Positions 8,431-44,394 of a DNA stretch of 64,000 bases are shown in pieces; the first letter of the stretch is position 1, and every line of letters begins with the position of its first letter. Where the stretch lies: assembly GCF_015999335.1 (NCBI RefSeq), contig NZ_JAEACP010000023.1, positions 1 through 64,000 on the forward strand, in the 5' to 3' direction. Below the pieces are notes generated by a model, which made no database searches, had not been told where the DNA came from, and saw only the letters and a program-made list of their open reading frames with translations. Both the position numbers and the translations under genes were made by a program. This stretch comes from Tabrizicola soli (lineage in GTDB: Bacteria; Pseudomonadota; Alphaproteobacteria; Rhodobacterales; Rhodobacteraceae).

Positions 8431-8606
8431 ATGCGCGTCTTGGAAGATGCCTTTGTCGAAGGCCTCTCCCCAGGCGCGGACAGGGTTCGGGAGCCTCCCT
8501 TCGGGACGGGCGGCACGAATGGAACCCTTCGGCCTCTTCGCAAGCGGCGTGACCCCGTGGCCCGACGGGGGATGCGCCAGCGAAAATACGAAAGGTGACC
8601 AGAAAC

Positions 8607-12736
<4,130 letters not shown>

Positions 12737-12740
<4 letters not shown>

Positions 12741-13531
12741 CCAGCGGCCTTGCATCCTTCTCCGGCCCGGCGGGGTCGATGGCCGGACCGGATGTCCAGG
12801 TCATCTTCCTGACCGCCACGGTGTCGCCCAGAATGGGGACACTTGATCTCGTGCGGTCGGATTCGGCCCTGCGGCGGCAGGACTACCTGGATGCATTCCG
12901 GTTCTATGCCGATGTAGTCCGGCGCAATCCGGACTACCGGCTGCTGCTGGTCGAGAATTCGGGCACTGATCTAGCCGAGTTCGAGAGGATCGCGGCGGAT
13001 GCGGGCATAGCGGAACGCACCGAATGCATCTCGTATACGGCCCAGGAGAACCCCGCATTGAACCGGCTTTATCTGGAGGGCGGATTGATCCGCGAGGCGG
13101 TGAAACGCTCGCGGTTCATTTCCCTGCCGGGGGTCGGGATCTGGAAAGTGACCGGCCGCTATCTCGTCACGAATATCGAAGCCCTGATCCGCAAGCGTCC
13201 CAAGGTTTTCGATATCTACGTGAATCTGCGTGATTACCCATCGCGCGTGGTGGATTTCTACTTCGCGGGATTCAGCCGAAAAGGGCTGGAGGCGGTGATC
13301 GCCCGGATCTGGGATCGGCTTCAGGTGACGTCTCCCGGCGAACTTATCCTGCGGCAGGCAATCGACACGAACCTGTTCGCGGACCTCGGCCTCGTGAAGC
13401 GGTTGAATGTCGTTCCTTTCATCAAGGGACGGCGTGGTCATGATAACAGGCAATATGACGGTGTGACCCAGGTTGCGAAATACTGGGTCCGGGTCGCAAT
13501 GAACGCAGTCGCCCCTCGGATCTGGATCTGA
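12737..13531 (+). CDS. Glycosyltransferase-like protein inserted between rpoB and rpoC
   Basis: A 264-residue protein whose ATG overlaps the rpoB stop (ATGA), so it should be translated by coupling to rpoB. Visible features are a hydrophobic beta strand followed by [10 protein letters not shown] (about residues 25-37), [10 protein letters not shown] (about 70-79), then [12 protein letters not shown] and [13 protein letters not shown]. This pattern resembles putative nucleotide-sugar-dependent glycosyltransferases that I associate with exopolysaccharide clusters; that link is from memory. There is no signal peptide or membrane span. Codon use is less GC-biased than in rpoB and rpoC. A short gap of 48 bases then leads to rpoC. 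Confidence 0.6.
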
Positions 13532-13579
13532 CTATCCCAGGACGGCGGACCAACACCTTTATCCACGGAGAATATCCGG

Positions 13580-17824
<4,245 letters not shown>

Positions 17825-17946: not shown

Positions 17947-18870
17947 TTGCACCTTTCGGAAAACCTGCGCGGAATCCTTCTGATGTGCACGTCGATGGCG
18001 GCCTTCACCATCAACGACACCTTCATGAAATCGGTGACGCAAAGCCTGCCGCTCTATCAGACCATCGCCATGCGCGGGGTGATCGCGCTGGTCGGCCTTG
18101 GCCTGCTCGCAGCCCTGACCGGCGCCTTCCGCTTCCGCCCTTCGGGTCGGGACGGGCTGCTGATCCTGTTGCGTTCGCTGGCCGATGTCGCGGCGACGAT
18201 CCTGTTTCTCGAAGCCCTGCTGCGGATGCCGCTGGCGAACCTCTCGGCGATCCTGCAGGCGCTGCCGCTCCTCATCACCCTGGCGGCGGCGCTGGTCTTC
18301 GGCGACAAGATCGGCTGGCGGCGGATGACCGCGATCCTTGTCGGGCTGGTCGGCGTCCTCATCATCATCCGCCCCGGGACCGAGGGCTTCGACCGCTGGT
18401 CGCTTCTCGGCATCGCCTCGGTCCTTTGCGTCGTGGTCCGCGACCTTTCGGTGCGGCCGATCCAGGGCGCGGTGCCGGCGGGCCTCGTGGCGCTCGGCGC
18501 GGCGGTCGCGGTCACCGCGATGGGCTGGATCGGTGCCGGGATCCAGGGCTGGAAACCCGTGTCTCCGGCCGAAGCGGCCGAGGTCCTTGCCGCCGGGCTT
18601 TTCGTGATCGTGGGCTATCTCTCCTCGGTCTCTGCGATGCGGCATGGCGACATCGGCCTTGTCGCACCCTTCCGCTACACCTCGCTCATCTGGGCCATCG
18701 TGCTGGGCCTCCTGGTCTTCGGCGACCTGCCCGACGCCTGGACCCTGGTCGGCGCGGCCGTCGTGGTCGGCGCGGGACTCTTCACCCTCTGGCGCGAGCA
18801 ACGGCTGCGCCGCCCGTCCCGTCCCGTCCCGGCCTCCCCGGACCCGGCCCCCCTGGACCCGGCCCGTTGA
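17947..18870 (+). CDS. EamA/DMT-family transporter (TTG start)
   Basis: A 307-residue integral membrane protein with about ten hydrophobic segments arranged as two EamA repeats (for example LLMCTSMAAFTINDTFMKSV near the N-terminus and FVIVGYLSSVSAMRHGDIGLV in the second half). Such proteins export amino acids or other metabolites; the substrate cannot be told. The start is a TTG with GAGAAGGA upstream at good spacing. The extreme C-terminus is proline-rich. Its stop codon overlaps the -35 element of the str operon promoter. Confidence 0.85.
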   Translation: MHLSENLRGILLMCTSMAAFTINDTFMKSVTQSLPLYQTIAMRGVIALVGLGLLAALTGAFRFRPSGRDGLLILLRSLADVAATILFLEALLRMPLANLSAILQALPLLITLAAALVFGDKIGWRRMTAILVGLVGVLIIIRPGTEGFDRWSLLGIASVLCVVVRDLSVRPIQGAVPAGLVALGAAVAVTAMGWIGAGIQGWKPVSPAEAAEVLAAGLFVIVGYLSSVSAMRHGDIGLVAPFRYTSLIWAIVLGLLVFGDLPDAWTLVGAAVVVGAGLFTLWREQRLRRPSRPVPASPDPAPLDPAR

Positions 18871-22174: not shown

Positions 22175-23350
<1,176 letters not shown>

Positions 23351-43036: not shown

Positions 43037-43131
43037 GTGCCGGGCGGCGGATGGGCTCCGGTCCCCAGGCCACTTGACCTGCTGCGGGAAGTGGACGACC
43101 CTCGTTTCCGCCCGTTCTGGTGAGTGAGAGC

Positions 43132-44394
43132 ATGAAGATTCTGCTTGTTGCGCAGAATGCATCTTCCCGTTTCGGCGGAGAGGCGTTCCTGCCTCTCAAA
43201 TACTTCCAGCTTCTGCGTCAGCGCGGCCATGAGGTGCGCCTGATTGCGCATCAGAGAAACCGGGACGATCTGCAAGAAACCCTCGGCGATGAAATCCGGT
43301 TCGTGCATTTCATTCCCGACACGGGATGGCACCGGGCAATCTGGCGAATTGGGCAGCACCTGCCCGCCCGGGGATTCAAGCCGATTGTCGAAATCGCCAT
43401 GGGATTTGTGAATGAACATTTCCAGAAGCGTATCATCCGTTCGCTTGTCGCGGAGGGAAAGGCAGACATAATCCACCAGCCGATCCCGGTTTCTCCGCGC
43501 GCGCCGTCCGCGATATACGGTTTCGGCATTCCGGTCGTGATCGGCCCGATGAACGGAAACATGAGCTTTCCGGACGGATACGAGGATTACCAGCCGTCTT
43601 GGGAACGCCGGATGATCGGGTTCAGCCGCCTCTTCGCCGGTTTGGCGAACCGGATCATTCCGGGAAAGGCGCGGGCCGCGGCGCTTCTGGTCGCCAATGA
43701 GCGGACCAGAAGAGGATTGCCCGTCGCGAGCCATCCCAGGGTGATCAGCCTGGTCGAGAACGGAGTCGATTTCTCGGTCTGGAAAGGGGCCTTGCGGCGA
43801 CCGGAAGGCGACAATGCTTTCCGCCTGGTATTCATGGGGCGCCTGGTCGGACTGAAGGCGGTGGACCTGACACTGGAAGCCATGGCGCTGACGCGGAAAT
43901 CCGGGGTCGATGTGCGCCTGGATGTCCTGGGCGAGGGGCCCGAAACGGAAAGGCTTCAGGCCCTTGCGAAGGCCCTGGATCTGCAGGATGTGGTGACCTT
44001 CCACGGTTTCCTGCCGCAATCCGAATGTGCCGCGAGGATGGCGCGGGCCGATGCCCTGGTCCTCAATTCCCTGCGCGAATGCGGAGGGGCGGTCGTGTTG
44101 GAGGCGATGGGTCTCGGACTTCCGGTCATTGCCGCGGATTGGGGCGGTCCGGCCGATTATCTCGACCCCTCCTGCGGGTTTCTGGTTCCTCCGGTGCCAC
44201 GCTCGACCTTCGTGCCAAGGCTGGCCGAAGCGATGCAGAGGCTGGCAGACGACCCGGAGCTTGCCGGGCGAATGGGGGCGCTCGGGGCGGCGAAGGTCCG
44301 GGCCGAATACGACTGGGAGAAGAAGATCGACCGGATGCTGCAGATCTACCAGGACCAGCTCGGACCGGCATCCGGGGCGGGTCGGGCGCAGTGA
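43132..44394 (+). CDS. Glycosyltransferase family 4
   Basis: A 420-residue GT-B fold enzyme. The N-terminal domain begins MKILLVAQNASSRFGGEAFL; the C-terminal donor domain has FMGRLVGLKAVDLTLEAM, VLGEGPETERLQALA and the E-x7-E region in LNSLRECGGAVVLEAMGLGL PVIA. It likely transfers a sugar in surface polysaccharide synthesis; donor and acceptor are unknown. A GTG at 43120 could add four residues. Base composition in the first half is less GC-biased than neighbours, as also seen in the gene between rpoB and rpoC. Confidence 0.85.
   Translation: MKILLVAQNASSRFGGEAFLPLKYFQLLRQRGHEVRLIAHQRNRDDLQETLGDEIRFVHFIPDTGWHRAIWRIGQHLPARGFKPIVEIAMGFVNEHFQKRIIRSLVAEGKADIIHQPIPVSPRAPSAIYGFGIPVVIGPMNGNMSFPDGYEDYQPSWERRMIGFSRLFAGLANRIIPGKARAAALLVANERTRRGLPVASHPRVISLVENGVDFSVWKGALRRPEGDNAFRLVFMGRLVGLKAVDLTLEAMALTRKSGVDVRLDVLGEGPETERLQALAKALDLQDVVTFHGFLPQSECAARMARADALVLNSLRECGGAVVLEAMGLGLPVIAADWGGPADYLDPSCGFLVPPVPRSTFVPRLAEAMQRLADDPELAGRMGALGAAKVRAEYDWEKKIDRMLQIYQDQLGPASGAGRAQ

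Follow-up and report, generated by a model that had tools for sequence, protein, structure and literature searches.

A predicted GT-A-fold transferase gene between rpoB and rpoC of Tabrizicola soli, and accessory genes at essential-operon junctions in Rhodobacteraceae

The genes for the beta and beta' subunits of RNA polymerase, rpoB and rpoC, count in textbooks as inseparable and almost always lie side by side. In Tabrizicola soli (contig NZ_JAEACP010000023.1, positions 1 to 64,000; this stretch of 64,000 nucleotides (nt) is called the window), an open reading frame (ORF) of 264 amino acids (aa) plus stop lies between them, which raises the question of how it came to be there and what its product does. 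It is probably an acquired accessory gene for a surface-glycan glycosyltransferase with a GT-A (glycosyltransferase A-type) fold, lodged in the rpoB-rpoC spacer and read from the rpoB transcript, and not a part of the transcription machinery. The presence of a gene at this site means that the junction is able to take up accessory genes.

The gene and its junction

The ORF overlaps the rpoB stop codon by four nucleotides as ATGA (rpoB ends at 12740) and is separated from rpoC by 48 nt, an arrangement described in an earlier note on this DNA and confirmed from the ORF coordinates. That note also described the neighbours as undisturbed, and both rpoB and rpoC are indeed intact, open frames. The GC contents of the three codon positions of the inserted ORF are 0.62/0.44/0.74, compared with third-position values (GC3) of 0.912 for rpoB and 0.910 for rpoC, so that its description as having less GC-biased codons is accurate. 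It is a real gene, because five relatives (23-35% identity) have 17 invariant columns in common with the window protein.

Insertion at this site, as opposed to ancestry, is supported by surveys of the genus and the family. Among 32 genomes of the genus, nine gave no junction match (including G015, which carries a relative of the gene elsewhere) and one (G006) gave half only; setting aside the window's own genome, 21 congeners were measured. The spacing comparison that the earlier note had proposed finds the junction free of the gene in all 21, with a rpoB-rpoC gap of 73-103 nt in 19 of them (several with hairpin-like repeats, by eye) and of 360 and 372 nt in G009 and G007, where it is filled by unrelated small ORFs. 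The family survey covered 100 genomes among the family-search matches listed, nearly all one per genus and taken by score from the 257 of 295 genomes with a match, which favours strong RpoC matches; the gene family is absent from the junction in all 100. The window's genome and G128 were joined to this sample since both hold the gene (102 in total). The gap has a median of 81 nt across the 102 genomes and exceeds 200 nt in 14 and 400 nt in six (12/100 and 4/100 without the two carriers). Small unrelated ORFs, several of them lipoprotein-like by eye, occupy the gap at L034 (G007), L058, L076, L098, L102, L107 and L115. One genome, G018, has two unlike rpoB-rpoC junctions (L013, L036) at 70% completeness, which suggests contamination.

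The gene is also rare in any position. Matches were found in 2/32 genomes of the genus (the window's own and G015), 4/295 of the family (its own, G128, G135 and, weakly, G138), 2/292 of the order (its own and G413) and 2/385 of the class (its own and a weak match of 54 positions in G723), the last two sets being searched with an alignment and all four overlapping. The G138 match (97 residues, 4.4e-4, within an 865-codon frame) was left unused as weak.

Two lines of evidence bear on the start codon. Homologues begin near residue 16 of the ORF in alignments, and residues 1-15 of the structure model have a predicted local distance difference test score (pLDDT) below 50; together these make Met15 (12779) a possible true start, and translation may begin there instead of at 12737. 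The rpoB stop context favours the overlapping start. It is GTGA in 16/17 usable congener rows and ATAG in one (the G011 row was dropped, since a split match had given it 832 nt where the gap is 89 nt), compared with ATGA in the window. Across the 102 genomes ATGA occurs in 5/14 junctions with gaps above 200 nt versus 4/88 others (Fisher p 0.002), a post hoc comparison among related genomes in which the window is itself one of the 14. An ORF starts on the rpoB stop in 10 of these 14 long gaps, the window included.

Predicted fold and distribution of relatives

The database check that the earlier note had called for returns no profile family and a GT-A-type fold. The window protein has no Pfam or NCBIfam profile match (E<=10), and the six members of alignment A1 yield no Pfam or PHROGs match (E<=1) and a single NCBIfam match, NF047521, for one member (E 0.013); the family is thus described by none of the three libraries searched. 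Sequence searches of PDB gave no credible match. The predicted structure and Foldseek fold searches indicate a GT-A/Rossmann-like nucleotide-sugar fold, in keeping with the glycosyltransferase-like product that had been proposed. GT-A folds usually, though not universally, carry a DXD metal- and nucleotide-binding motif at the end of strand 4. The window family lacks it and has an invariant K-x-T-G-R there instead (6/6 rows in both A1 and A2). The metal-independent GT-A enzyme BoGT6a (4ayl) is 8% identical to the window protein, with no sequence relation found, and K-x-T-G-R is not known as a motif of such enzymes.

The earlier note missed that the same gene family occurs between rpoB and rpoC in another genus (G128) and between sucD and sucA (G015 and G413, each with another gene alongside). 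In G135, the copy lies among glycosyltransferase-like genes in what reads as a polysaccharide cluster, and the Bacteroidota relatives (L004, L005 and L146) are in loci that read as capsule-type. One remote match came from the plasmid collection and one from the phage collection, each located in a locus of this type. Searches of the viral contig and genome contig collections with the window protein gave no relative; in the latter the L005 protein found one Bacteroidaceae metagenome-assembled genome. The Bacteroidota proteins (L146; OY725990, MT836080) are 20-30% identical to the five proteobacterial rows and have the K-x-T-G-R, NS and E columns in common with them; they differ in setting, since they belong to capsule-type loci whereas the window gene stands alone in an essential operon. 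By its site between rpoB and rpoC, the window gene is not a capsule or exopolysaccharide gene of a polysaccharide locus. The L005 record (MT836080.1) carries the label 'Bacteriophage sp.', and its antiterminator-, flippase- and glycosyltransferase-like genes read as those of a Bacteroides-type capsule locus. In two genomes (L148 and L147), several sugar-transferase-like genes, including relatives of the window gene, lie in the sucCD-sucAB-lpd region.

In the protein tree, the copies at rpoB-rpoC (window and G128) pair with support of 88/91 and those at sucD-sucA with 74/81, neither pairing being starred. Pairing the window protein with that of G015 is rejected (p 0.03), and pairing it with G135 is not (approximately unbiased test, p-AU 0.17). 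On a FastTree phylogeny of RpoB and RpoC (116 rows), the two rpoB-rpoC carriers fall in different large groups and require two changes.

Accessory genes in essential operons of the family

Inserts occur at several junctions of the region and at none of the sampled copies of others. Gaps above 400 nt were found at rplA-rplJ (23/78), rplL-rpoB (11/99), rpoB-rpoC (6/102) and rpoC-rpsL (55/56), and at neither rplJ-rplL (0/98) nor rpsL-rpsG (0/48) nor rpsG-fusA (0/36). The ORF filter applied to these neighbourhoods was crude, leaving some false ORFs, and many neighbour names, among them sucA and sucD, were assigned by reading. Five rpoB-rpoC inserts hold a credible ORF of at least 200 aa: two of the window family, two of Sulfotransfer_3 (G246 and G037) and one without a match; with the window and G128 excluded, sulfotransferases account for two of three. 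The Sulfotransfer_3 genes thus have the junction in common with the window gene, and possibly a surface-modifying role, but belong to an unrelated family.

A further pattern absent from the earlier note is that, in the family, the rplA-rplJ junction of the same operon often carries sugar-transferase inserts. Pfam scans of 24/28 ORFs there, counting inserts with an ORF of at least 140 aa (n=21, G128 included), placed PF13704 or PF04765 above cut-off in nine (G128 also PF04577); one more insert is a LicD gene with a cytidylyltransferase-like gene. Glycosyltransferase genes of these three families at rplA-rplJ, from several genera, are found at L010:926-3031, L066, L088, L109, L134, L140, L047, L054 and L079. 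The rpoC-rpsL junction of L051 and L068 has a confirmed Rhamno_transf (PF11316) gene.

The Glyco_tranf_2_4 (PF13704) genes at rplA-rplJ, sucB-lpd and sufB-sufC offer the closest parallel, as sugar-transferases that are likewise patchy in essential operons and whose subfamily goes with the address; they belong to another protein family, to which the window protein has no match. Genomes contain 2-13 PF13704 genes in the six searched, with eight in the window's own, one of which lies between sufB and a sufC-like gene (L168, C1:369430-372729). Six same-strand rplA-rplJ proteins cluster (86/95, not starred) next to a copy near sucC (100/99), and the sucB-lpd copies of G015 and G128 cluster (100/100). 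The six rplA-rplJ carriers are scattered on the RpoB and RpoC tree, requiring five changes for six carriers among 78. Subfamily follows address, and presence is patchy. The rpoB-rpoC case is a real, uncommon insertion, and its parallels in other essential operons make it more than a curiosity. Among the entries listed by a literature search, none dealt with genes lodged at the rpoB-rpoC junction or with operon inserts of this kind.

Origin, expression and function

The explanation considered probable is that the species gained the gene and lodged it in the non-coding rpoB-rpoC spacer, where it would be read from the rpoB transcript; its translation would probably be coupled to the rpoB stop or re-initiated there. 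The product would glycosylate a surface polysaccharide or another glycan of the cell surface and would be no part of the transcription machinery. The address would be one of a few permissive junctions (rplA-rplJ, rpoB-rpoC, rpoC-rpsL and those around sucCDAB-lpd and sufBC) at which single sugar-transferase or sulfotransferase genes occur patchily. Between 12600 and 13700, no terminator-like site was found at either junction of the gene, and the only one present lies inside the ORF (13238-13253; chance expectation 0.7).

Several results weigh against this explanation. Without a DXD motif, any catalysis must be metal-independent, or the protein is inactive. Sugar nucleotidyltransferases rank level with glycosyltransferases in the fold searches, query-normalised Foldseek TM-scores reach at most 0.49 among the 50 PDB matches listed, and the best score in the viral library (0.57) belongs to an uncharacterised phage protein. 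The five structure models differ, with mean pLDDT from 82.6 to 54.5, and clear family members come from just five genomes, so that family-level statements rest on few sequences. Nine of the 14 rpoB-rpoC gaps above 200 nt contain just ORFs below 140 aa, and 11/21 rplA-rplJ inserts have no sugar-transferase family above cut-off (they include biopterin hydroxylase, EamA, Hint, RTX proteins and CDP-alcohol transferase, with one sub-cut-off PF13704 match); the junctions therefore appear permissive and not reserved for sugar enzymes.

The alternatives are each less probable. The fold matches, with RmlA, GlmU, IspD and CMP-KDO synthetase near the top, would also suit a nucleotidyltransferase, or NDP-sugar synthase, that supplies an activated sugar; this is unlikely, since no Pfam or NCBIfam nucleotidyltransferase family matches, the relatives in capsule loci adjoin transferase-like genes and the nucleotide-binding signature of that class is lacking by reading of the alignment. 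It is slightly less likely still that the gene is ancestral at rpoB-rpoC and was lost from nearly all lineages. The pairing of the window and G128 proteins, by which the shared address goes with closest known kin, fits such an origin, but absence from the 21 congeners and 100 other genomes would demand many losses where two gains suffice, and the alternative pairing with G135, sited elsewhere, survives testing.

The earlier note had also suggested a role tied to transcription. The product might, for instance, be a factor that binds RNA polymerase and whose amount is matched to that of beta and beta'. The location of the gene and a possible coupling of its start to the rpoB stop are compatible with such a role, yet no evidence for it emerged: the relatives are found at sucD-sucA, in a polysaccharide cluster and in loci of capsule type, the predicted fold is GT-A and the measured congeners manage without the gene at the junction, which makes such a role very improbable. 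That faulty assembly or binning placed a foreign gene between rpoB and rpoC is just as hard to credit; the genome is a 57-contig draft, but the flanks, over 1.3 kb each, match those of the nearest congener (G025) at 93% and 94% identity, the reading frames are intact and the same family stands at the same junction in the separate genome G128.

Within 12600-13700 there are no direct repeat families, one 13-nt inverted pair and no further gene in the insert, and neither the flanking repeats nor the recombinase of a transposon or integron cassette is present; the lack of repeats favours homologous or replacement-type integration over transposition. Identity to the nearest neighbour, followed in sliding steps through rpoB and rpoC, is mosaic throughout with no clear breakpoint at the junction, a pattern that neither shows nor excludes recombination with the flanks.

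A speculative and rather doubtful extension is that essential operons of the family serve as docking addresses for surface-sugar genes. The highly conserved essential genes on either side of a fast-diversifying transferase would act as its homology arms, by which it is swapped between strains and genera through homologous recombination, for example on the ~4.5-kb fragments of gene transfer agents (GTAs), and each subfamily would keep its address. The DNA of rpoB and rpoC in the window is up to 92% identical to that of the nearest congeners. Two reports state that the Rhodobacter capsulatus agent (RcGTA) transfers ~4.5-kb pieces by allelic replacement (PMC9690577) and that it binds capsule (PMC10218006). 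On this reading, swaps that change the capsule would alter which cells can exchange genes with each other. The window's own genome has two GTA_TIM (gene transfer agent) matches (L197 on C21 and L198 on C7), one with an internal stop; they fit the placement in Rhodobacteraceae. Were address-keeping exchange true, a single testable scheme would connect receptor variation and conserved operons with gene transfer agents. That sugar- and sulfo-transferases recur at a few set junctions of essential operons points to a route by which surface glycans may diversify outside classical polysaccharide loci.

Table 1. Coordinates of the inserted gene and of neighbouring features in the window
Feature	Position	Strand	Remarks
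Inserted gene	12737..13531	+	predicted GT-A-fold transferase, without Pfam/NCBIfam family
Codons of invariant K137-x-T139-G140-R141	13145..13159	+	end of strand 134-139
Alternative start codon Met15	12779..12781	+	matches N-termini of homologues; residues 1-15 pLDDT <50
rpoB (RNA polymerase beta)	8595..12740	+	upstream neighbour, intact, 1381 aa; ORF call, tblastn reference across genomes
48-nt spacer before rpoC	13532..13579	+	by eye differs from congener spacers
rpoC (RNA polymerase beta')	13580..17824	+	downstream neighbour, intact, 1414 aa
EamA transporter	17947..18870	+	between rpoC and rpsL; Pfam EamA match

The EamA gene downstream of rpoC is ordinary for its site, since EamA-like ORFs are read at rpoC-rpsL in many sampled genomes. 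Elsewhere in the window, a GT4-type glycosyltransferase-like gene (43120-44394; profile matches below curated cut-offs) lies beside a rarA-like gene and has a GC3 of 0.736, as low as that of the inserted gene. Two tuf-like ORFs of 391 aa each (1-1176 and 22175-23350), identical over their first 55 residues, lie on either side of the rpl-rpo-rps region.
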